From positions 1 to 64,000 of the IMG/VR virus record IMGVR_UViG_3300023174_003901: a DNA stretch of 64,000 bases; one strand, 5' to 3'. Positions within the stretch are counted from its first letter, which is position 1, and each line of letters opens with the position of its first letter. Shown here one piece after another: positions 8,433 through 31,570 of the stretch. The notes under the pieces were generated by a model. It did not search any database and had not been told where the DNA came from. It worked only from the letters and a program-made list of their open reading frames with translations. The DNA is from a virus. The position numbers were made by a program, and so were the translations under genes.

Positions 8433-9919
8433 GATGCGGCTATCTCCTGCACTATCAACCAGATATTTGTACTAGTAAGTGTGCTACTGACATTAGATAC
8501 CTTTTGCTGTAGTTTATAAGTCACCGGACTTGTGGTTCCCGGGCTATCCATATAACTGTAACTAACCGCCCCAGTTGAGCCAACACCCCCTCCTGACACT
8601 GTTGTTCCACTTGTTTGTACCTGTAAACTGGTGCTAGGACTTCTAACCAATTGAGTATCAGCAGTGACATTTGCTCCTGCTAATGCACTAAAACTACTGG
8701 TGCCTGTGGCTATAACAAGAATTTTACTAGTTGAACTAGATGGTGTAATTGTCACGTTTGCATAACTGATGTCAGCATAACTAGTGCTATTTGTTGTACT
8801 ACCACCCAGACTTGAACTCATTACTGTTTGTACCACAGCACCCAAGGGCATGTTATACGCTGGCAGTCTGTTGTTGGTATAAAGATTTTGTGTGTAGGTG
8901 TTGCGGAAATATGCAGTGCTATTTCCCACATCATAACTGACATTGGCAATTGGCAACAATGTACCAGAAATTGCCACATTGGCAACCACGCCGCCAGCAA
9001 AAGCAGGACTGGTGGTATCAATCCAGTAATTACTTGTGCCATCATAAAGGTATTCGTATAGAACATCATTGGCGGTATCATACCACTGGTCAGTTACTTT
9101 GGGTGCTGGACTGACAGGAGGTGCTGTATTGGCTGTGTATATTATGCCTGGAGGAACTGGTGTACCATTGGCATAATAGTAATTGTTTGAAAGTATGTTG
9201 CCGCCGGTGATATTGCCACTAGCACTCATCGCCCCGGTAATGTATGCACCTGTGTTGGCCACAACTATCACATTGCCTGTGCCATTCACACCCATTGTGA
9301 TATTGGCATTGGCTGTGTTGATGCTAACATTACTTGTACCATTGCTGATAAATGTAGTGTCTACACCAAACTCACCAACGTATCTGTAACCCACAATATA
9401 AATTACGTTGGCTGTTCCTGTACCAATAGCAGTTGGTATGGTTGCGCCATTAAAGTTTAGAACACCAGACTGGTAATCAAAGAACCAGGTGTCATCGCTG
9501 CCAGAGCCTGCGCCAAATAACTTGGTACCTGCTGTTTGAGGATTGCTTATGTTTGCGGCACCGGCATACACTTGTACCAGGTAGTTGTCGCCAAACTGTG
9601 TGGGGATCCAGTTGATTGAGTTTGTCTTCCAGGTTTGATTGTCAGGTGCTGTTAGGTCTTCGGTACATTGTACAGCAGGACTGTATCCAGCGCCGCCACC
9701 ATCTTTGTATACCTGTACCAATGATGTGGTATTGGACGGCGGTGAAGCAGGTATGTCTCCACTCTGTGTCCAAATGAGATCGCCACGATACAGCAGTGGA
9801 CTGGGTATGGTTTCGTTGAAGGCTTGCTTGGATTCAGGCTCGGCTGTTTTGGTCACGCCGTAGCCGACCTTTTTCCAAAGATAATCAATCTTTTGTGATT
9901 CGTTAAACGAGGCGGCCAT
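8429..9919 (-). CDS. Tail fiber-like protein, 496 aa
   Basis: The start codon overlaps the stop of the upstream 2632-aa gene (TAATG). The N-terminal ~185 residues (MAASFNESQKIDYLWKKVGY, then a region ending YIVGYRYVGEFG) form a non-repetitive head of a kind seen at the start of marine phage structural proteins, probably the virion attachment part. A short GNITGGN repeat stretch follows, then the KVTDQWYD / LYEYLYDG module (residues about 260-311) that is shared with the 1679-aa fiber. The C-terminal ~140 residues (from GAVVQTVMSSS to LIVQEIAAS, including SKILVIATGT and TYKLQQKV) look like a globular tip domain of the jelly-roll kind found at fiber ends. Function as a short fiber or fiber tip is inferred. 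Confidence 0.82.
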   Translation of the reverse strand: MAASFNESQKIDYLWKKVGYGVTKTAEPESKQAFNETIPSPLLYRGDLIWTQSGDIPASPPSNTTSLVQVYKDGGGAGYSPAVQCTEDLTAPDNQTWKTNSINWIPTQFGDNYLVQVYAGAANISNPQTAGTKLFGAGSGSDDTWFFDYQSGVLNFNGATIPTAIGTGTANVIYIVGYRYVGEFGVDTTFISNGTSNVSINTANANITMGVNGTGNVIVVANTGAYITGAMSASGNITGGNILSNNYYYANGTPVPPGIIYTANTAPPVSPAPKVTDQWYDTANDVLYEYLYDGTSNYWIDTTSPAFAGGVVANVAISGTLLPIANVSYDVGNSTAYFRNTYTQNLYTNNRLPAYNMPLGAVVQTVMSSSLGGSTTNSTSYADISYANVTITPSSSTSKILVIATGTSSFSALAGANVTADTQLVRSPSTSLQVQTSGTTVSGGGVGSTGAVSYSYMDSPGTTSPVTYKLQQKVSNVSSTLTSTNIWLIVQEIAAS

Positions 9920-12900
9920 TAAGTTGCTACTCCTATCGACAAGGCTGTGATGGACTGTCCAGAAGCCAATGCAATTCTAATTAAAATGTTGGTACCAGTA
10001 CTATTGGCAGCGTTTTGTCCCCCCAAGGTCATTGTGTATCCTACGTTGGCTATTGCTGTATTTAACGGTATCACATCTGCACCAGTCAATGCACATCCGT
10101 TTGAACCGTTGCCACCAGTACCGCTGGCAGCACCAGGAACCCCTGCTCCGGCATACTGTGTAGATGCTTCCAGCCATCCGTTGATGGTACTGGTAGGGCC
10201 TGGAAATCCTGGTGTAGGCGATGAGAATCCGCCGGAATCAATTGTGGTTCCTGGTGCAGCCACCCAAACACCTGCAACACCTGTGGTTGTGGTCAATCTG
10301 ATGTCAAAATTGGCCAGGCTGGGTCTTGCAAACGCAAAAGTAAAGTACTGTGTGGTGGTACGATTTCCACCTATTGACAAGTTTGGCCCCACCGGCAAAT
10401 ATCCTGTTGATAAATCAACTGCATATCGTTGGAGTACACCATACCTCACAACTGCTTCAGGTGTACCAGCAATGGTTTGTGCTCCGGACCAAGCATTGGA
10501 TGTATAGTAGTTTATGCTGTTGGCAAACACAGGAGTGTTACCTGCGGTACTCATCACAATACGTATGGCCGCTTGTGTGTTGGCAGTAGGCGTACAAGTG
10601 ATCGACTGCTCATTTATGCCAGAGTTTGCTCCTGCATACATCTGTATCTTGGTTGGCAATTGTACTGTGGTACTGGTACCTATCACGTTGAATATATTGG
10701 CCTGCAAGGTGGCCACGCTGTTGTTGGCACCGGTAATGTTGCCGGTCAAATTGCCCAGGATGTAGTTTGAACTTATACCCACGTTGGCATTCAAGTTGGC
10801 GCTTGTTAAGAAACTGCTGGCACCATTGTTGATTGTGCTGAGTGCTTTGGTTTGAGTTGCTGACAACACCGCACCAGAGCCTTCTGACACTGTTCCGCTG
10901 TCCAATATAAACGGATCGGCACTTCTAAATGTTTGTCCAGACAAGTTTGCTACTTCCAAGTTAGCAATGGTAATTGTGGGACTTCCGGTATTGTAATATG
11001 GAATGCCCGAAATATATCTATAAGTTCCTGCTGTGGCTTCAACCATTGCGATGTTGGCAGTGACCAGACTAGGTGACGAATTCAAATTGTCCTTGACAAA
11101 TCCCACGTAGTTGGTGTTGCCTGTCACAGAGTCTACCAACTTGTAGTTGTTGTATCCTGTGCCCAAACTGCTCAAAGCACAAGCGATATTGGCATTGAAT
11201 ACCTTGTAGAAATAACTAGGCACCGCGGCATTGGCCACGTGCAAGTCTCGATCTTGCGTTACAACCAATGCACCCGAAGTTCCAACAGTGTTACTCACAT
11301 TGCTAAATGTCACGTTACCGGCATTGGCATTGTTGACATAGGCAAACAAGTTGGCTGTCAACTGACTTGAACTTATTCCGGTGTTGGCATTAATAATGTT
11401 GGCCGCAGTGGCAATAGTTGTTGTGGTTGCAAAACGTGTGACACTTGCGCCGTTGGCCACAATGTTACCACCTGAGGCATCTCTTGCGCCGGCTGCTAAC
11501 AAAGGACTGGTTCCTTCGCTGGTGTTGGCAATAGCCAAGTTGGAGAAGCCGCTGAGGTTTGTGGGTGCTGTGGGGTTTGTGGCAATAAAGATATAGCCAA
11601 CATTGGAGATTGTGTTGCTTTGTGCTGTGCTGGAAATACCATTAGGTGTACCATTAGCAGTGAGCGCCACAGTGAAAGCACCTGTGCTGTTATAAGTGTG
11701 AAGTGAGTTACCCACATTTGACACGCCGTTGCTGAATGTGCTGTCACCCCATGACCAGTTGGCCAAGTTACTGTTTTGACTGGTGTTCTGGAACGTGAAA
11801 GTAGAACGATTGGCATTGTTATAGTCAGTATAGAGGTATCCAACTCTGGCGTTGCCTGTGTTGGCAGTGGCATCTGTTATGACGTTGGCAGTGGTTCCAA
11901 TATAGTTGGCACGAACTTGTGGATTTACACTGATTGTAATGTTGCTTGACTTGGCTGGACTGGTGCTATAGCCAGTGTACAAGTACAAGTTGGCTGTGAA
12001 CTGTTGGTATGCATTGCCTGCTTGGTTGGCGGCACTCAATGCAAAAGTGTTTGTTAGGTTGGCAGCAGATGGGTTACCAGCAATGCCTGTTCCAACGTTG
12101 ACGTTAGATACATTACCGTCACCGTAGTTGAAGTTGTACAATTGCTGTGCGCCAAAACTCGCGGTGTTTCCCGGTGTGCCATTTGAATCGTTTCTAAAAC
12201 TTATTGTGCCAACACCGTTGATCACTGTGGCCGCGTTGGCAGTGAGGAACACATTGCCTGTTTGTGGTGAATAAACTTTGACATTACTGGCCGATGAAAC
12301 AACAGTAACGTTACTAGCACCGGCTGTGTTACTGGTTCCACTCAATATCACACTGTACAAACTGTCTGCATTGGATGACACAGAGTTGTATTGATGAGTC
12401 ACATTGGTAAATGATGTGTTACCCAAGCCAGGTCCAGCGGTAAAGTTAGCAGTACCGTCGCCAAAACTCAAATCATACCAGGTCACATACTGACTGGTGT
12501 TGGTTATGGTTATGGTGTTGCCAGTATTGAAACTGTTACTGCTTAAAGTAAATGACGGAATAGGACTTGGCGTGTACACCACAATGTTTGAAATGTTGGC
12601 AGTACTGGTAGAACCTTTGGCTCCTTGAGCGGCATTACCGTTATATGTTCCGTTGGTGTTATAGGCTGTGAAGGTCACAGTATAAGTTCCACCCAGAGCA
12701 TTACTAAACGTGTGAGTAGCGTTGGCTGTGGTAACGTTGGCTGTGCCGTCACCAAATTGCCACAGGAAACTGTTAGGGTTACCAATGTAACGTCCAGTGA
12801 ATGCCACTGTTAGAGGACTAGGTCCAGAATAAACGTTGGCAGTGATATAAGTGTTACCCACGTATGTGCTGTTGGCAATATTAAATGCCACCTGGTTCAA

Positions 12901-15900
12901 ATCATCAAGACCATCTGTAACAAAAGTTCCTGTGGTCCATCCTTGATAGGCACCGTTGGCTGTTAAACTACCGTCTGAGGGTGTTCCCAAAGTGATTGTG
13001 TTACCTTGACCACCAGATGCAATAATTCCGGTGAGTTGGCTACCGTTACCAAGGAAATAATTACCTGAGACGTTGCCAGTAGCCGAAACTACACCAGCAG
13101 TTAAAACATTACCACCTGTAATATTGGCTGTGGCACTTACTAGACCACCAGTTAATACATTACCAAGTGTAGCATTACCAGTTGAACTGATCAATCCTGA
13201 GGTGAGCAGATTACCACCGGTGATATTGCCAGTTGAACTAATCAATCCACTTGTAGTTAGATTACCACCAGTTACGTTAGACGTTGCTGAAACAAGCCCG
13301 CTAGTTAAAATATTGCCGCCACTGATATTAGCGACACTTATGATGTTGCCAGTTGCCGATAATATACCACTGGTAATTAGATTACCACCTGTGATATTAC
13401 CGGTTGAACTTATCGACCCACCAGTTAAAATATTGCCAAGTGTAGCATTGCCGGTAGCACTAATTAATCCTGCGGTGAGTACATTTCCGCCAGTGACATT
13501 GCCAGTTGCGCTTATCAATCCGCTTGTGGTGACATTGCCACTGTTGACATTACCTGTTACACTTAAACTTGTACCTGTTGCGGCACCAATGTTGGGAGTT
13601 GTGAGATTAGCACCAGCCTTGACAATGATGTTGCCGGTAACATCAAATGCAGTGGTATTCTGATCAACTTTGGCATTAAATTGCGTACCTATTAAACTTA
13701 GACCAGCATCAACATTGGCAGTATAAGTTGTGGCCTGGCTGAACAAAGCAAAAGAGATATTGCTTGTGCCAAATGTGATTGTACCTGTAGGTGCATTAAC
13801 TACAAATGCAGAACCAGCATTGACGTTACCGTTTGTGGTGAAGAAATAGTCATTTAAACTCAGTTGGTTAACACTGTCTGGACCATATTCGTCTGCATCA
13901 GTTGAACGTACAATAACAGTGGCGTTGCTCCAGGTATACACGCCATTGTAGACTGCATTACCTTCGTTCTTGACAAGAATACGTGTACCCGCTGTTTGAA
14001 CGTTGGCTGTGTCAATCAAGTTAAATGATCCAGTGGTACTTAAATATGCGCCAATACCGTTGCTCACTCCGTTAGGTTGAGCATAGGTAATAGTACCACC
14101 TGTTGTAATAGCCAATGTAGTTGTAGTGGCCGCATATGCCGGTGAGTGGAACGACAATGCTGACGACACCATGTTGTCAACATACAACTTTGTTGCGGCA
14201 TCGGTATCTTGCGCTGGATATGCTACACTATTGATAAATGTGTTGGCCAATACAATGTTGCCGGCTGGTTGTAGATTTAAATTACCCGAGGCAGTGGTAA
14301 TTGTTAATGCGCCGCTGGTGGGTCGAATACCACTGGTGTTTACGTTTCCAGCAATTACATTACCCGTGACGCTGGCAAATCCTGTGGCAAAAACATTGTT
14401 ACCAGTTACATTACCAACTGCTGATAGGTACCCGGTTGTACCTACTCCGGTTGGTCCAGTTAAAGAACCATCATTGCCAAAAGTCCATTGATAAGATCCG
14501 CCTGCAGGTTTTACACTAATTTGATAAGCACCAGTAATTCCCAAATCTAATGGATTAGTTTGTACAATACTAGCATTAGCAAATGCCAATGTGCCACCAA
14601 CAATACTTAAATTGCCACCTGTAATATTACCTGTGGCCGAAATCAATCCACCAGTCAACAAGTTACCAACTGTGGCATTACCAGTGGCTGTAATTGACCC
14701 TGCTGTTTGTAAGTTGCCACCTGTGATGTTGGCTGTGGCTGAAACAAGTCCGCCTGTTAGGATGTTGCCAGCAGTGGCATTACCTGTGGCGGATATCAAT
14801 CCAGCAGTTAAAACATTGCCACCAATGACATTGCCAACTGCAGAAATCGTAGTTCCAGCAGTGACAGCATTGGCAGCATTTACATTGTTACCTGCTAGAT
14901 TTCCTGTGCCTGTACTAATGCTAGTAGCATTAGAACTAATAATCTGTGCTCCCAAGTAGATACTGTTTCCACTTAGGTACAAATCTTTAAAGGCATTTGT
15001 AGCAGTACCAATATTGTAGGTTATATTGGCACTGGGTATCAAATTGCCTGTGATGTTGCCAGTTATACTAAAATCTTTGGTAGATACTAGATTGGCAGTG
15101 CTAATGTTGCCACCAGTTACATTGCCACTAGCACTGATAACTGAACCTAATAAACTGGATGCAGTCACCGTTCCGGTAGAACTGATCAATCCGCCTGTTA
15201 ACAAATTACCACTGACTGTGTTTCCAATCACACTCAAGTTGGCTAAATTACCAACTTGTGTTAGACTCGAATATAAAACGTTTGAACTTAGTGTATTACC
15301 AATCAGGGCATTGGCATTTACACTAGATGCTGAAACGCCGGTTAATTGACTGCCGTTACCAATAAAGTAACTGCCAGATATGTTACCAGCGGCTGAAATT
15401 TGTCCGGCGGTGTTGATATTGCCACCAACAATATTAGCAGTTGAACTAATCAATCCGCCGGTTAAAATGTTACCACCAACAATATTACCGCTGGCACTCA
15501 ATATGCCTGTGATATATTCACCTGAAGTAGCGAACACTGCTACATTAGCAGTACCACCTACTCCAACCGTAATATTACCGCCCGAACTTACTACAGTGAC
15601 ATTACTTGTGCCATTATTGATATTGGCTACACTTGTGATAACGCCAGTTAGTAACGCACCGTTACCCAGGATATAATTACCTGTTACATTGCCCGTGGCC
15701 GATACTATGCCGCCTGTTAATACGTTGCCGACTGCGGCGTTGCCTGTTACACTTAGATTGGACAAATTGCCAACTGAAGTTAGACTTGAATATAAAACAT
15801 TCGAACTTAGTGTGTTGCCAACCAATGCGGCAGCATTTACAGCAGACGCAGTGATGCCGGTTAGCAACGAACCATTACCGATGAAGTAGTTGCCGGCAAT

Positions 15901-17817
15901 GTTACCTGTAGTAGATACGAGCCCGGTTAAGTTTGGTAGGTTGCCAGAATATGTTGGCAAGTAGTTGGCCACGTCGGCATTGCTGTATCCTGCTGGCAAG
16001 CCAGTGATAAATGCACCGTTACCCAACAAATACGTTCCAGTGACGTTTCCTGTTGCGCTTACAACACCAACTACATAAGCCCCTGTATCACTGACTGTCA
16101 CAACATTGCTTACACCTGCTGAACTTATGGTAACATTGCCGTTGGCAGCCACCGCAACATTACTGTTGCCGTTTAAGATTGAAGTACCAGCACTGACTGT
16201 GATACCAGTTAGTAAACTACCATTACCAACAAAGTAACTGCCAATAACATTGCCAGATGTAATTAAGTTGCCGCCAGTGATGTTACCAGCGGCACTGAGA
16301 GATGCGGCGCCAAATGTGCCTGTAATTGCAACGTTTCCTGCTGAAACGTTTCCAGTAACTGACAGCGAAGAGCCAATAAAGTTATTTCCGTAAACATTAC
16401 CAATGGCCGATACATATCCGCCCACAGTGATATAATCGGCATCCAGTCTGGTTGTATCAACATTACCGGCCACAAGATTACCAGTGGCTGATATTTGTCC
16501 CGAGGTAATAAGATTGCCACCGCGAACATTTCCTGATGCGCTGACTGTTCCGGCAGTGACTGTCCCGACAGGTACATTGAGATTGCCGGCTTGTATATTA
16601 CCTGTGGCTGATATCAGTCCAGAGGTAATAATATTTCCACCAGTAACGTTGGCAGTGGCACTGACCACAGTTGCCACAACAGACGTTCCAATTAAATTTC
16701 CGCCGGTGATATTACCTGTTGCTGTGATTGGTCCTGTAACTGTGACGCTGTCAGCATCTAGTCTACCAGTATCAACATTACCACCAATAATATTTCCGGT
16801 GGCTGATATCTGTCCTGTTGTTCGTAAATTGCCACCAGTTATGTTAGAAGTAGTAGTTACCGGTCCAGTGAGACTAACTAGGTTACCTGTATAGGTGGGC
16901 AAAAAGGCAGCCACATTGGCATTGCTGTAATTTCCTGCTGGTAGATTTGTAAGTTGACTACCATCACCAATAAAATATGCGCTGGTGGTAATGTTGCCTA
17001 TCGCACTTATGGTAGTACCTGTAGTGATATATCCAGCATTTAATCTACCAGTGTTGATGTTACCACCAGTGATGTTACCTGTTGCCGAAATTTGGCCGGC
17101 AGTTCTTAGATTACCACCTGTAACATTGGCTGTGGTTGTTACTGGTCCGGTTAAACTAACCAAGTTACCTGTGTAGGTAGGCAAGAAGGCAGCCACATTA
17201 CTGTTGCCGTAACCAATGTTGATACCAGTTAGTAACGCACCGTTACCTAAAATATAGTTGCCAGCAATATTGCCAGTTGCACTTACTGTGCCAGCAACAT
17301 ACACACCGGTGCTGGCAAATGTCACAACATTGCTGGTGCCGTTGACAGTGACAAAGATGTTGGATCCAGCAGATGGAATATCAAGATTACTGTTACCGTT
17401 TACAACTTGACTACCAGTTGTGGCCACAATACCTGTGAGTTGGCTGCCATTGCCAATGAAATATCCGGCTGTGACGTTGCCTGTGGTTGTTATTCCACCA
17501 GTCGTATCAATTCCACCAGTTCCCAAATAGATAGAATTGAAACGTAAACTAGGCGTACCTATATCGTAAACATCGCCCAGTCTAGGAAACAGTGTGTTGT
17601 TGAGTTGTATTCGTCCAATTCCAGACGGGCTCAGTATTAGATTACTGTTGAGTATTGTGGTGGTAATAGTAGTATTACCAATTTGAATGTTACTGAGTAC
17701 TGGACCGGCCGCAAAAATCTGATCAAAGTTTTGATTGGTATAGGTAAACGCAGTTCGTAACGGATCACCTTGTCCGTCATCAGGGGCAGCGCCAGTGTCA
17801 ATGATATACTGTGTCAT
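9919..17817 (-). CDS. Giant fiber-like protein with PKD-like domains, 2632 aa
   Basis: One of the two largest proteins in the window. The start ATG lies 19 bases after a late promoter motif GGTAAATA. The N-terminus (MTQYIIDTGAAPDDGQGDPL, then NQNFDQIF) is a conserved opening of large phage fibers. Residues about 100-1600 are GN/T-rich repeats. At about 1206-1362 they are interrupted by the same module as in the 1679-aa fiber (TRILVKNEGNAVYNGVYTW). The C-terminal third is different: at least three PKD-like immunoglobulin-fold domains with the signatures WQFGDGT (about 1680), LSFGDGT (about 1780) and WSWGDSTF (about 2010), followed by a long non-repetitive end. PKD domains are common in surface-binding proteins, so a host-contact function is likely but unproven. 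Confidence 0.87.
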   Translation of the reverse strand: MTQYIIDTGAAPDDGQGDPLRTAFTYTNQNFDQIFAAGPVLSNIQIGNTTITTTILNSNLILSPSGIGRIQLNNTLFPRLGDVYDIGTPSLRFNSIYLGTGGIDTTGGITTTGNVTAGYFIGNGSQLTGIVATTGSQVVNGNSNLDIPSAGSNIFVTVNGTSNVVTFASTGVYVAGTVSATGNIAGNYILGNGALLTGINIGYGNSNVAAFLPTYTGNLVSLTGPVTTTANVTGGNLRTAGQISATGNITGGNINTGRLNAGYITTGTTISAIGNITTSAYFIGDGSQLTNLPAGNYSNANVAAFLPTYTGNLVSLTGPVTTTSNITGGNLRTTGQISATGNIIGGNVDTGRLDADSVTVTGPITATGNITGGNLIGTSVVATVVSATANVTGGNIITSGLISATGNIQAGNLNVPVGTVTAGTVSASGNVRGGNLITSGQISATGNLVAGNVDTTRLDADYITVGGYVSAIGNVYGNNFIGSSLSVTGNVSAGNVAITGTFGAASLSAAGNITGGNLITSGNVIGSYFVGNGSLLTGITVSAGTSILNGNSNVAVAANGNVTISSAGVSNVVTVSDTGAYVVGVVSATGNVTGTYLLGNGAFITGLPAGYSNADVANYLPTYSGNLPNLTGLVSTTGNIAGNYFIGNGSLLTGITASAVNAAALVGNTLSSNVLYSSLTSVGNLSNLSVTGNAAVGNVLTGGIVSATGNVTGNYILGNGALLTGVITSVANINNGTSNVTVVSSGGNITVGVGGTANVAVFATSGEYITGILSASGNIVGGNILTGGLISSTANIVGGNINTAGQISAAGNISGSYFIGNGSQLTGVSASSVNANALIGNTLSSNVLYSSLTQVGNLANLSVIGNTVSGNLLTGGLISSTGTVTASSLLGSVISASGNVTGGNISTANLVSTKDFSITGNITGNLIPSANITYNIGTATNAFKDLYLSGNSIYLGAQIISSNATSISTGTGNLAGNNVNAANAVTAGTTISAVGNVIGGNVLTAGLISATGNATAGNILTGGLVSATANITGGNLQTAGSITATGNATVGNLLTGGLISATGNITGGNLSIVGGTLAFANASIVQTNPLDLGITGAYQISVKPAGGSYQWTFGNDGSLTGPTGVGTTGYLSAVGNVTGNNVFATGFASVTGNVIAGNVNTSGIRPTSGALTITTASGNLNLQPAGNIVLANTFINSVAYPAQDTDAATKLYVDNMVSSALSFHSPAYAATTTTLAITTGGTITYAQPNGVSNGIGAYLSTTGSFNLIDTANVQTAGTRILVKNEGNAVYNGVYTWSNATVIVRSTDADEYGPDSVNQLSLNDYFFTTNGNVNAGSAFVVNAPTGTITFGTSNISFALFSQATTYTANVDAGLSLIGTQFNAKVDQNTTAFDVTGNIIVKAGANLTTPNIGAATGTSLSVTGNVNSGNVTTSGLISATGNVTGGNVLTAGLISATGNATLGNILTGGSISSTGNITGGNLITSGILSATGNIISVANISGGNILTSGLVSATSNVTGGNLTTSGLISSTGNITGGNLLTSGLISSTGNATLGNVLTGGLVSATANITGGNVLTAGVVSATGNVSGNYFLGNGSQLTGIIASGGQGNTITLGTPSDGSLTANGAYQGWTTGTFVTDGLDDLNQVAFNIANSTYVGNTYITANVYSGPSPLTVAFTGRYIGNPNSFLWQFGDGTANVTTANATHTFSNALGGTYTVTFTAYNTNGTYNGNAAQGAKGSTSTANISNIVVYTPSPIPSFTLSSNSFNTGNTITITNTSQYVTWYDLSFGDGTANFTAGPGLGNTSFTNVTHQYNSVSSNADSLYSVILSGTSNTAGASNVTVVSSASNVKVYSPQTGNVFLTANAATVINGVGTISFRNDSNGTPGNTASFGAQQLYNFNYGDGNVSNVNVGTGIAGNPSAANLTNTFALSAANQAGNAYQQFTANLYLYTGYSTSPAKSSNITISVNPQVRANYIGTTANVITDATANTGNARVGYLYTDYNNANRSTFTFQNTSQNSNLANWSWGDSTFSNGVSNVGNSLHTYNSTGAFTVALTANGTPNGISSTAQSNTISNVGYIFIATNPTAPTNLSGFSNLAIANTSEGTSPLLAAGARDASGGNIVANGASVTRFATTTTIATAANIINANTGISSSQLTANLFAYVNNANAGNVTFSNVSNTVGTSGALVVTQDRDLHVANAAVPSYFYKVFNANIACALSSLGTGYNNYKLVDSVTGNTNYVGFVKDNLNSSPSLVTANIAMVEATAGTYRYISGIPYYNTGSPTITIANLEVANLSGQTFRSADPFILDSGTVSEGSGAVLSATQTKALSTINNGASSFLTSANLNANVGISSNYILGNLTGNITGANNSVATLQANIFNVIGTSTTVQLPTKIQMYAGANSGINEQSITCTPTANTQAAIRIVMSTAGNTPVFANSINYYTSNAWSGAQTIAGTPEAVVRYGVLQRYAVDLSTGYLPVGPNLSIGGNRTTTQYFTFAFARPSLANFDIRLTTTTGVAGVWVAAPGTTIDSGGFSSPTPGFPGPTSTINGWLEASTQYAGAGVPGAASGTGGNGSNGCALTGADVIPLNTAIANVGYTMTLGGQNAANSTGTNILIRIALASGQSITALSIGVAT

Positions 17818-27461: not shown

Positions 27462-29591
27462 TTAGTTACGAGCGACCTGAATCATCTTTTGATTTTGGGA
27501 ATTGTTGGCTTTCATAAGTGCAATCAATTCATCCATTTTGGCTATTTGTATCACAGTTAAATCATTAGAGGTTCTGGCATTAGCAACAGCCGATGCTGTA
27601 TCAGCACTGGCGGTATTGACTCTAGCCGCACTGGGATCGATACCTTTTAAATTGGAAGAATAACTGTCTTTTGGTCCACTTTGTATGGCCGACATTAACT
27701 CACTGGCACTGATGTTGGCTTTGTTAGTGTTGTACCCATCATAACGTCCACGGCCTGACATGTCTTGTGGCAAACTGGCCCAGGTACCAGCAAGATTTTT
27801 CATCACCGAGGCTGAATCTTTTGTTCCGTATCCGGCTTGATTGATCAATTGCGATGCCAATAAATCTTGTGTGTGTTGATCAAATTTGGTTTTGTTTGGA
27901 TCCAGGCCGGCTTTTTTTGCTTGTTCAGCCAGTGTGGCAGCAATCATCTGATACTTGCCAACTGCTGTGCTAGGGCGACCACCCTTGATCATGGTACTCT
28001 GGAGTTGTTGCACCTCAGCAATGGTCATACCAGTTAAATTGGCTGTGCCACCTCCTACTAGAGCATTGTAGTTGCCTCCGCTTTCGCCTCGACCAATAAT
28101 GTCCAACAATGAAGATACATTGCCGCGACCTGTGCCTGCTGTGCCTGCTGAGCCTGTTCCAGGAAGTAGGTTGTTGGTAACACTTTCTACTGCGCCACTG
28201 AGTTTAGACATGCTCTTGGTTACAGGATTAACACCCTGATTGATCATATTCTGCAGGCCACGAGTAATTTCCATCTGCTCTTGTCGCATGCCCACTTGTG
28301 CTTTTGTTGCACCATCTAGATTTTCAATTTGATCTGCTTGTTGATCTCGAGCAATTCGATCCTGTTCAGCATAGGATTGTTGAAGACCTTTCACACGAAG
28401 TTTATTAATTCCCGCCATGGAACCAAACACTTCGTCAAAGCCTCCTACTTTGGCCAATCCGCTGAAGCCTCGCATTGCACTGCCGGCTCGTTCTACTCCT
28501 GCATCTAGGGTCTCGGCTGCATCAAAACTCTGACTGGCTACTCTCTGGAACAACTCGGGCATGACTCTAAACAACTGTTCGGCTTCTTTGCTAGAGCCTG
28601 CAAATCCAGTCATTGCACCAATTAGACCTGATCTCAATTCTTTTGGCGCCATATCCAGTAACTTCTGGTTCTGATCCATTTGATTTTCAAATGCTTTGGC
28701 CTGTGTTTCGTTTCCAGCCAGTCTGGCCTGTGCTGCCTTGTCTTCCAACTCCATCTGAACAGCAATAAATCGCTGTTCCTGCATTCTGGCTTCACGTTCT
28801 TGTTGCAGAGTTTCTGCGCTCTGTCCTGTGAGTTTGGTCAGCACATCTAGATTCTTGATGTATTCCGCGGCACCTTGTGTGAGTTCTGATGTGGTTTTAC
28901 GTTGTGCTGTGCCAGTTAGGGTTTGTATTCTAAGATAGCCACCCATGCCTTGATTGATTTGATCAACAGTCATGCCCATCCGCATGAATTCAGTCTGCAA
29001 CCCAGAACGCTGAATTCCTTTGGCCACGTTAGTAAATGCCATTGTGCCTTGATTGACAGTACCGCTCATCAAGGCCAACGACTCTGCATTCTGTTTGATT
29101 AGATTACCAAAGTCGCCCAGTTGTTCAATGTTGTAGCCAAAGTCCTGCATACTCCGGAACACACCTGTCATGCCCGATGCACTGGCTGCGCCAACTTTGC
29201 TGAGTGACTGATAACTTTCAAACAGTTTGTCACTTTGTTTGTTGACTTCTATAACATATCTGGCACCGGCTGTGACCACAGCGCCAATGATCTTGCCCAG
29301 TATACCAAATTTGGCCGCAAATGCATCAACAGCATCTGCTCCGGCTTTGATACTGTCATTGTATGTTGATGACCCTTGCTTGCCGTCTTTAAGAGCCTCG
29401 CCAAAACTCAATACACTAGTGCCCAGTTGCTTAAGGCTCTGGTTCAGTTGATAGGTGTAGTTTCGAATGCCAGCCTTGGCGTCAGCAAATGCATCGGCTG
29501 TTTCTCTGGTTACTCGACCAGTTCTCAGCAGTTCGTCGTTATACGCATCAAACGCGGCTTGGATTTCTTCAGGGGTCATTTGTGTGGCCAT
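27462..29591 (-). CDS. Tape-measure-like tail protein with lysozyme-like domain, 709 aa
   Basis: Most of the protein is helical and Q/A/G-rich with a hydrophobic stretch (FGILGKIIGAVVTAGARYVI, near residue 90), as in tail tape measure proteins. Residues about 510-620 carry a lysozyme/transglycosylase-like domain: IGRGESGGNYNAL holds the probable catalytic glutamate and STAVGKYQMIAATL is a typical second motif. It could cut the cell wall during DNA injection. The gene faces the gp26-like gene, and tape measure genes normally lie next to tail chaperones. T4's equivalent would be gp29 (590 aa), which has no such domain. I chose ATG 29591 (MATQMTPEEIQ) because GGTAAATA ends five bases before it; an upstream start would run into the divergent gene. 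Confidence 0.75.
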   Translation of the reverse strand: MATQMTPEEIQAAFDAYNDELLRTGRVTRETADAFADAKAGIRNYTYQLNQSLKQLGTSVLSFGEALKDGKQGSSTYNDSIKAGADAVDAFAAKFGILGKIIGAVVTAGARYVIEVNKQSDKLFESYQSLSKVGAASASGMTGVFRSMQDFGYNIEQLGDFGNLIKQNAESLALMSGTVNQGTMAFTNVAKGIQRSGLQTEFMRMGMTVDQINQGMGGYLRIQTLTGTAQRKTTSELTQGAAEYIKNLDVLTKLTGQSAETLQQEREARMQEQRFIAVQMELEDKAAQARLAGNETQAKAFENQMDQNQKLLDMAPKELRSGLIGAMTGFAGSSKEAEQLFRVMPELFQRVASQSFDAAETLDAGVERAGSAMRGFSGLAKVGGFDEVFGSMAGINKLRVKGLQQSYAEQDRIARDQQADQIENLDGATKAQVGMRQEQMEITRGLQNMINQGVNPVTKSMSKLSGAVESVTNNLLPGTGSAGTAGTGRGNVSSLLDIIGRGESGGNYNALVGGGTANLTGMTIAEVQQLQSTMIKGGRPSTAVGKYQMIAATLAEQAKKAGLDPNKTKFDQHTQDLLASQLINQAGYGTKDSASVMKNLAGTWASLPQDMSGRGRYDGYNTNKANISASELMSAIQSGPKDSYSSNLKGIDPSAARVNTASADTASAVANARTSNDLTVIQIAKMDELIALMKANNSQNQKMIQVARN

Positions 29592-29596
29592 AACTA

Positions 29597-29604
29597 TATT
29601 TACC
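29597..29604 (-). promoter_or_regulatory. Late promoter motif GGTAAATA before the tape-measure gene
   Basis: Minus-strand GGTAAATA is followed by five bases and the ATG at 29591. The whole divergent intergenic space is 23 bases and also holds the GGAGAA ribosome site of the rightward gene. Confidence 0.68.
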
Positions 29605-29614
29605 GGAGAAAAAT

Positions 29615-30454
29615 ATGCAACAACCCAATCCACTCAGTCAGTTCTTTAGACAACCAGCAATTCACATTCGATTGCCATCAGGGGGTAAATTCTATCCTAC
29701 AGGCAGTTTAAACATGCCGCCCAATGGAGAACTGCCTGTGTTGCCCATGACAGCAGTGGACGAAATAACCTACAGAACACCCGACGCACTGTTCAATGGC
29801 TCCGCCATAATTTCAGTTATTCAAAGTTGTGTGCCCAGCATTAGAGACCCCTGGGTCATGCCCAGTACAGACATCGATGCTGTGTTGGTTGCTATACGTA
29901 TTGCCAGTTTTGGACACGGCATGGATATTACCAGTAACTGCCCAAGTTGCAATCACCAGGAAGATCTCAAATTGGATTTGCGTGTGATCAATGATCAGAT
30001 TCGCCCAGGCAATTATGACATGAGTTTGACTATTGGCAATCTTGAATTTTACTTCAAACCCATAAGTTATCAAGACGTAAATCAAAATAATCAAACTCAG
30101 TTTGAACAACAACAAGCACTACGACTCATAGACAATGATCAAGTTGAAGAGTCAGTCAAACTAGAGCAATTGAATCGTAGTATGAAGATCATCAATGAAC
30201 TTACATTAAAAACTATTGCTCAAAGCATAGCGGCTATCAAAACTCCAGATGCACTAGTGACAGAAATTCAATATATCTTTGAGTTTCTCAACAACTGTGA
30301 CAGCAAACTATTTGGTCAGTTAAGAGACCATGTGATTGCACTCAAGCAAGCCAGTGAAATCAAACCTGTTGACTTAACTTGCCCTGAGTGTAGTCACAAG
30401 TACACACAACCATTTACCCTGGATATGGCAAGTTTTTTCGGGGACGCCTCCTGA
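29615..30454 (+). CDS. 26: gp26-like baseplate hub/tail assembly protein, 279 aa
   Basis: The protein resembles the T4 gp26 family (PF12322-type baseplate proteins): an N-terminal IRLPSGGKFYPTGSLNMPPN segment, two cysteine pairs CPSC (near residue 111) and CPEC (near 259) that probably bind zinc, and a C-terminal YTQPFTLDMASFFGD. A GGAGAA ribosome site fixes the start. In T4 gp26 is a baseplate hub component (208 aa). Its place next to the tape measure gene is also where tail assembly chaperones are found. Near the end the zero-frame codons AGT TTT TTC form a slippery heptamer T TTT TTC; the downstream ORF is open in the -1 frame, so a longer fused product may be made. Confidence 0.78.
   Translation: MQQPNPLSQFFRQPAIHIRLPSGGKFYPTGSLNMPPNGELPVLPMTAVDEITYRTPDALFNGSAIISVIQSCVPSIRDPWVMPSTDIDAVLVAIRIASFGHGMDITSNCPSCNHQEDLKLDLRVINDQIRPGNYDMSLTIGNLEFYFKPISYQDVNQNNQTQFEQQQALRLIDNDQVEESVKLEQLNRSMKIINELTLKTIAQSIAAIKTPDALVTEIQYIFEFLNNCDSKLFGQLRDHVIALKQASEIKPVDLTCPECSHKYTQPFTLDMASFFGDAS
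30434..30454 (+). other. Candidate -1 ribosomal frameshift site (T TTT TTC)
   Basis: The slippery heptamer covers 30433-30439 and is in the right phase for a -1 slip (codons AGT TTT TTC). The -1 frame is open from 30394 through the stop at 30667-30669. Just downstream, GGGG (30440-30443) could pair with CTCC (30448-30451) in a small stem; this is weak. Confidence 0.5.
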
Positions 30455-30480
30455 TCTCTAGCCCTGAAGAAATCAATCAG

Positions 30481-30669
30481 TTGATAGAGACCATGGACAA
30501 GGAATGTCAACAGATAAAACAAGAGGCGATAAAATTCAGTTGGTACATGAGAGGTGGATTAACCTATGATCAGGCCATGGCATTGAGTTTCAATGATCGA
30601 GAAGTGATTAGCAATCTAATCAAAGAGAATTTAGAAACTACCAAGAAGTCCGGATTACCATTCTTCTAA
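30481..30669 (+). CDS. Small ORF after gp26, probable frameshift extension
   Basis: The frame holds WYMRGGLTYDQAMALSFNDR and ends ETTKKSGLPFF. A small protein with YMRGG..Y and ETTKKSGLP-like endings follows gp26 in other marine T4-like phages, from memory. There is no good start: the candidates are TTG at 30481 and ATG at 30493, neither with a clear ribosome site. In-frame sequence upstream of 30481 is open without stop back to 30394, overlapping the end of gp26. The simplest reading is that it is translated mostly as a -1 frameshift fusion with gp26, as in tail assembly chaperone pairs of other long-tailed phages. Independent initiation cannot be excluded. Confidence 0.65.
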   Translation: MIETMDKECQQIKQEAIKFSWYMRGGLTYDQAMALSFNDREVISNLIKENLETTKKSGLPFF

Positions 30670-30687
30670 CAACATCTATCTGTTTCA

Positions 30688-30717
30688 AGACTTACTACGT
30701 AAGTCTGTTGTTTTCGC
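30688..30717 (+). terminator. Hairpin terminator after the gp26 unit
   Basis: AGACTTAC and GTAAGTCT pair perfectly around TAC, followed by TGTTGTTTTC, 18 bases after the stop codon at 30669. The T-run is short, so efficiency is uncertain. Confidence 0.65.
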
Positions 30718-30785
30718 TATCGCTCAACAACTGATTGTTTCTCTAACTATTTGAATTAAGTATCATCCAGATTATGTGGTCATAA

Positions 30786-30805
30786 TTCACCGTATGCACG
30801 GTGAA
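30786..30805. other. Perfect 8-bp hairpin of unknown role
   Basis: TTCACCGT and ACGGTGAA pair perfectly with the loop ATGC. No T-run follows on either strand, so it is not a typical terminator; it may be an RNA structure or protein-binding inverted repeat. Confidence 0.6.
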
Positions 30806-30854
30806 AATGAGAGCGCATCATCCGAGTGACAGCAGTCATCTATACTAATGAGAT

Positions 30855-30909
30855 TTATACTTTTTAAAAGTACAACTTCTTGCGAAATTATCTTTTTTAA
30901 AAGCACAAC
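30855..30909 (+). repeat. 22-bp direct repeat in non-coding region
   Basis: 30855-30876 and 30888-30909 match at 19 of 22 positions and share the core TTTTTAAAAG; the first copy also has an inverted repeat, ACTTTT/AAAAGT. The 33-bp spacing is close to three helical turns, so both copies would lie on the same DNA face. Confidence 0.6.
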
Positions 30910-31141
30910 GGAGGCGGTTGACCGGTACCCCCTACTCAAGATTCACATATCAACGGAACCCTAGTAACCCGATATAGATCCAAGTCCTATGAGCATGGGG
31001 TGTATCTTCTTCACAGAGCCCAAACCATTTGTTGCCTTAAGTTAGCAATTGCCTTTGACGCCCAAGTCTAAATATGGTATCTCACATATCCTCAATGGGG
31101 GTGAGCCAATACACTCACCACGTTGTCATGATCGCTGCCTA

Positions 31142-31570
31142 TTAAATTTTGTTTATGATGTGTGAGCCATGTACTCTAACTTGTATATGGCCGTTGTAAT
31201 AGTCTCGTGATTCCAATACTCGTCGGGCAAATTGTTCTCTTGCTTCGACATAACTACATTCAGATTTTGATCCGCAGTAGTAAAGTATTTCTCTGGTGAA
31301 GTTTTCGGTGCCTAGTTTGATTACGTCTGCGGTTAATTCTGGGCTTGACCCATAGTACTCTCTCCAATCACTGTCGATCTTGGAGCGTATCTTCTTCCGC
31401 TTTTTTGTGCCATTTTTGAGTTTGACTGTTTTTGTAGTTGTCTTACTAAATTTTGCTAATTTTTTGCCTATGTACTTGCGTCCAGTGAGATTACATGTGA
31501 TCAAGTAAACAAATCCAACACACTCTTCGGGCAACGTCTCAATTGGGGTATCTTGATATAGCCATGTCAT
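31142..31570 (-). CDS. GIY-YIG-like endonuclease, 142 aa
   Basis: The N-terminal GFVYLITCNLTGRKYIGKK matches a GIY-YIG start (GFVYL and KYIG), and a candidate catalytic glutamate lies in YVEAREQFARR. A lysine-rich insertion (TTTKTVKLKNGTKKRKK) separates strand 1 from WREYYGSS. It lacks the NUMOD DNA-binding repeats of the other GIY-YIG gene in the window. A free-standing homing endonuclease or a domesticated DNA nuclease are both possible. Upstream on the minus strand is GATAAATC, a weak late-like motif 11 bases before the ATG. It lies between the non-coding region and the SGNH-like gene. Confidence 0.7.
   Translation of the reverse strand: MTWLYQDTPIETLPEECVGFVYLITCNLTGRKYIGKKLAKFSKTTTKTVKLKNGTKKRKKIRSKIDSDWREYYGSSPELTADVIKLGTENFTREILYYCGSKSECSYVEAREQFARRVLESRDYYNGHIQVRVHGSHIINKI

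Follow-up and report, generated by a model that had tools for sequence, protein, structure and literature searches.

According to Atkins et al. 2016 (PMC5009743), long-tailed phages 'except T4' share a conserved G-T frameshift. In T4 itself, gp26 and gp51 have been described as hub assembly chaperones in PMC3004832, which also cites evidence for gp26 within the hub. Tail assembly chaperones of T4-like phages are credited, in the passages of PMC10885494 and PMC12846349 that bear on them, to Vladimirov, Gautam and Davidson (2022, Virology 566:9-15); citing that work, the passage in PMC10885494 states that in some T4-like phages a short gene and a fused long one take the place of a frameshift, and that in PMC12846349 that T4-like TAC-N genes have known polyT slip sites. 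Here we describe a gp26-like gene in a stretch of virus DNA of 64,000 nucleotides (hereafter the window, positions 1 to 64,000 of IMG/VR record IMGVR_UViG_3300023174_003901), from which, very probably, a freshwater jumbo phage obtains two forms of a tail chaperone through a slip of the ribosome.

Results

The features of the locus are collected in Table 1. In profile searches the product of the gp26-like gene matched PF12322 (T4_baseplate, E=1.3e-15) and PHROG 150 (baseplate hub, E=1.7e-16). Its 3' codons read AGT TTT TTC GGG GAC GCC TCC TGA, giving the short product the C-terminus ...DMASFFGDAS*, and the phase of the T TTT TTC among them is that required for tandem -1 slippage. The preliminary description of this DNA had placed such a heptamer, rightly phased, at the end of the gp26-like gene and had taken the -1 frame to be open to 30669. 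Both were recovered: the heptamer begins a few bases inside the span 30431-30669 quoted there, and the -1 frame is open from 30394 and ends at TAA 30667-30669, the slippage product being 351 aa long as against 279 aa for the unslipped one. Beyond this stop, some 470 bases without a convincing gene (30670-31140) are followed, shortly 3' of the frameshift gene and on the opposite strand, by a SegE-type GIY-YIG homing endonuclease (31142-31570; PF19835, E=3e-33). Elsewhere in the window, the minus strand carries an ORF of 2632 aa (9919-17817) without a PHROG match.

Table 1. Coordinates of the features discussed, as positions in the window
Feature	Position	Strand	Evidence
gp26-like gene, probable short tail assembly chaperone (TAC-N), 279 aa	29615..30454	+	PF12322 homology, model
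Slippery heptamer T TTT TTC, in gp26 phase	30433..30439	+	sequence, conservation
TGA, 0-frame stop closing the short product	30452..30454	+	sequence
-1 frame extension, 78 codons from the slip site	30433..30669	+	tblastn, pN/pS, hhalign, predicted helices
Candidate tape measure protein, divergent, 723 aa from the first GTG	27462..29633	-	position, length

The gene had also been said to face the tape measure gene. A divergent 723-aa ORF does adjoin it, so that the arrangement stands, but the identity of this neighbour is not borne out by T4: it gave no match to the T4 gp29 profile, and no profile match to the large gp26-adjacent genes of other T4-like phages. The gene in the same place in RaK2 is annotated as resembling a tape measure protein, and we treat the 723-aa neighbour as a candidate for that role.

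In-phase heptamers near stop codons are not rare. Within 45 nt of the stop, five heptamers of the form X XXY YYZ were counted in 4 of the 61 mechanically listed ORFs of at least 100 aa in the window. The heptamer alone therefore proves little, and as we read these sequences the decisive evidence is its conservation across phages. A search of IMG/VR returned 29 loci at 37-91% identity; TTTTTTC stands in phase in 27 out of 27 intact freshwater-type genes, the window's included. Wherever a close IMG/VR relative reaches past the gene, the heptamer lies 18 nt 5' of the 0-frame stop, and in all close relatives that are long enough the -1 extension runs exactly 215 nt beyond that stop. A relative found later, L053, has kept the heptamer as well.

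At 25-31% identity, 11 of 12 isolate jumbo phages have TTTTTTC, the twelfth, XacN1, having TTTTTTT. The heptamer is likewise found in all scorable cyanophage-type contigs (78/78), in P-SSM5, LG08, S13, phiAS5, Desulfovibrio 7757 and Vibrio CZ01, and in most T4-like myoviruses other than the T-evens; RL38J1 has TTTTTTG, and VmeM-32 and Melnitz-3 have TTTTTTT. It is absent from Pseudomonas Cygsa01 and Ackermannviridae AV101, and T4 and other T-even-type phages have no TTTTTTC. From codon usage and the residues encoded, the heptamer would be predicted in only about 9-15% of cases; the lineages that bear it are partly non-independent, yet they come from several phage families. The codon before the slip ends in T regardless of the residue encoded (S, H, Y, N, R, D or A). 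Across relatives the 0-frame stop lies 6 to 39 nt past the first slip codon, and among the isolate jumbo phages its distance varies from 9 to 39 nt; the stop therefore moves and the slip stays. Alignment of homologs, proposed with the first reading of the locus as its check, found heptamer and phase kept in all close and nearly all distant relatives, and none of the close relatives separates the two ORFs with a ribosome site.

The extension was compared in 18 sequences. In the -1 frame its pN/pS is 0.25 and no stop occurs, while the other two frames show pN/pS values of 1.17 and 1.75 and hold 1-10 stops per sequence each; by these comparative measures the -1 frame is evolving as a protein, under purifying selection. 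With the extension peptide as query, tblastn matched Atu_ph07, Phosso, GAP32, CBB, the 121Q group and others; among the matches listed, all alignments begin at residue 1, which is the slip site, and FFRxxLL is kept in the -1 frame across relatives. In the window's -1 ORF the nearest possible starts are TTG 30481, ATG 30493 and ATG 30547, and no Shine-Dalgarno-like stretch precedes any of the three, in agreement with the earlier remark that the downstream ORF has no well-placed start or ribosome site. The PA5oct extension has no ATG, GTG or TTG anywhere, and those of L028 and L053 have no start codon before codon 39. On this start-codon survey, independent initiation of the small ORF was rejected for the window group.

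Comparison of profiles with hhalign ties the window-type fusions to T4-like fusions (E=2e-20, 232 columns), the T4-like fusions to T4 gp51 nearly end to end, extension included (E=4e-22), and gp51 to gp26 (E=3e-21); reversed controls gave no match. Taken directly, window-type fusions match gp51 weakly (probability 33, E=5e-4), and the window-type extension alone, over 31 columns only, does so more weakly than the fusions; the link runs via the T4-like fusions. These alignments support the reading of the extension as the probable counterpart of the C-terminal domain of T4 gp51. PF12322 is present in a single full-strength copy in heptamer phages. Two copies are found in T4, Acj9 and KP15, all without TTTTTTC, the T4 paralogues being gp26, the short one, and gp51, the long one. 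RL38J1 has one extra PF12322 match, sub-threshold and 20 residues long, the PF12322 Pfam model gave no detection in SCTP-2, and no second PF12322 gene was found in the window's virus record, which at 200,246 bases may be incomplete. Cygsa01 and AV101 have a single PF12322 copy and a separate small ORF. In these two phages (AV101, L140; Cygsa01, L047) the ATG of the small ORF overlaps the gp26 stop as TAATG.

Structures of gp26 and of the extension were predicted as two separate parts. The AlphaFold2 model of gp26 has a mean pLDDT of 86, and its best match in BFVD, a set of predicted structures, is 'Baseplate hub assembly protein, bacteriophage T4-like' (E=5e-24); against the PDB it gave no match at E<=0.001, so that a fold shared with solved tail chaperones was not found. 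The extension model is all-helical, with a pLDDT of 77.

Discussion

We consider it highly probable, judging from comparative evidence, that the gp26-like gene yields a short and a long tail assembly chaperone of the G/GT type, the long one by a -1 frameshift. Both elements had been put forward at the outset: the conservation of heptamer and phase supports the frameshift that fuses gp26 to the next ORF, and the profile links to T4 gp26 and gp51 support a chaperone pair of this type. In the mechanism that we infer, which covers whether slippage occurs, how often it does so and what each product does, the majority of ribosomes would end at TGA 30452 and release the short chaperone. A minority would slip by -1 on the heptamer, tRNA-Phe re-pairing from UUU UUC to UUU UUU, and these ribosomes would bypass the stop and add 76 residues beyond Phe-Phe, giving the long chaperone (TAC-NC). 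If the two forms behave like lambda gpG/gpGT, the short one would coat the tape measure protein, with the few long copies bringing in subunits of the tail tube or baseplate.

As to possible stimulators, no conserved downstream RNA structure was seen in the window group, where RNAalifold returned no pairs, and single-sequence RNA folding gave z = -1.4; no internal Shine-Dalgarno lies 5' of the slip in this group. In cyanophage-type gp26 genes (L044, L054-L133) a purine-rich stretch resembling GGAGGG lies about 10 nt 5' of the slip. It could serve as an internal Shine-Dalgarno stimulator as in dnaX, and it also codes for a conserved Glu-Gly.

The downstream ORF might instead be a separate small gene, expressed by re-initiation or from an internal start, whose overlap with gp26 is due to chance. 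GenBank treats it in this way, as a separate hypothetical protein or as gp51 (gp51 or hub assembly catalyst in P-SSM5, phiAS5, RL38J1, Cygsa01 and CZ01), cyanophages have an ATG shortly after the 0-frame stop, and AV101 and Cygsa01 combine the TAATG overlap with the lack of a heptamer. We nevertheless regard this account as improbable, given that the -1 reading is conserved from the slip site on, 5' of any start, that usual starts are missing from the PA5oct extension and late in those of L028 and L053, that the starts in the window come without a Shine-Dalgarno, and that a separate small gene would give the heptamer no reason to persist. The overlapping ATG and absent heptamer of AV101 and Cygsa01 suggest that these two phages make the two domains as separate proteins, and in some lineages the second domain may therefore be expressed separately.

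Two further accounts bear on the T run itself. A fusion that arises because RNA polymerase, and not the ribosome, slips on the T6 run would find some ground in the longer T runs of XacN1, VmeM-32 and Melnitz-3, but nearly all relatives have exactly six Ts and then C, in the strict codon phase that tandem tRNA slippage needs, and bacterial polymerase slippage typically requires longer A/T runs; we hold it to be very improbable. We give even less credence, indeed next to none, to the heptamer as a chance by-product of the conserved Phe-Phe end of gp26 with decaying sequence behind it. The 0-frame Phe-Phe is indeed invariant, and a few other window ORFs have heptamers near their stops, but neither explains a synonymous choice and a preceding T that are fixed across lineages, nor the purifying selection that the pN/pS of the extension records.

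With ribosomal frameshifting as the preferred source of the long product, we lean, with some reserve, towards a single-gene -1 frameshift as the ancestral way of making the gp26/gp51 products in the T4 superfamily, jumbo phages included, which would have given way on at least two occasions, to gene duplication in T-even-type phages and to a stop-overlapping start in Ackermannviridae and Cygsa01. If this is true, gp26 and gp51 of T4, which have long figured as hub proteins or as assembly factors whose action is unclear, would have arisen by duplication from one G/GT locus. The keeping of the frameshift from cyanophages to 490-kb jumbo phages would mean that the short and the long chaperone versions are both needed, and chaperone function would thereby become testable in phages besides T4.

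The preliminary description had taken a G/GT-type pair in T4-like phages to be undescribed. This view has to be given up, since the passages that cite Vladimirov et al. 2022 credit that paper with both the chaperones and the polyT slip; as those passages present them, the short and long genes would correspond to 26 and 51, an identification that we draw from hhalign and PF12322 copy number. With T4-like chaperones and polyT slip already in print, as reported there, the probable pair in the window is an unannotated addition and not a new category, and the surprise is limited by the general idea having been published. None of the public jumbo-phage records compared annotates the long protein.

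Among other described systems, the tail assembly chaperones of Pakpunavirus/Vandenendeviridae and Andersonviridae resemble this locus in a conserved polyT (GTTTTT) -1 frameshift, likewise supported by comparative evidence (PMC12846349), and differ in belonging to other phage families. Lambda gpG/gpGT (PMC5009743) and P2 E/E+E' share with it a short product and a minor one that carries a tail chaperone extension through a -1 frameshift. They differ in that no fold link was found, the gp26 model being without a PDB match at the threshold given above, and in that the window gene is divergent to its large neighbour instead of lying immediately 5' of the tape measure gene. The P2 slip site is likewise T-rich. 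Also close are the gp26/gp51 chaperones of T4-like phages, with which, in so far as the citing passages describe them, the locus shares the PF12322 family, the short and long forms and the polyT slip site; T4 itself differs in having two genes, with two PF12322 copies and no heptamer, whereas here a single gene would serve both forms through a -1 slip.
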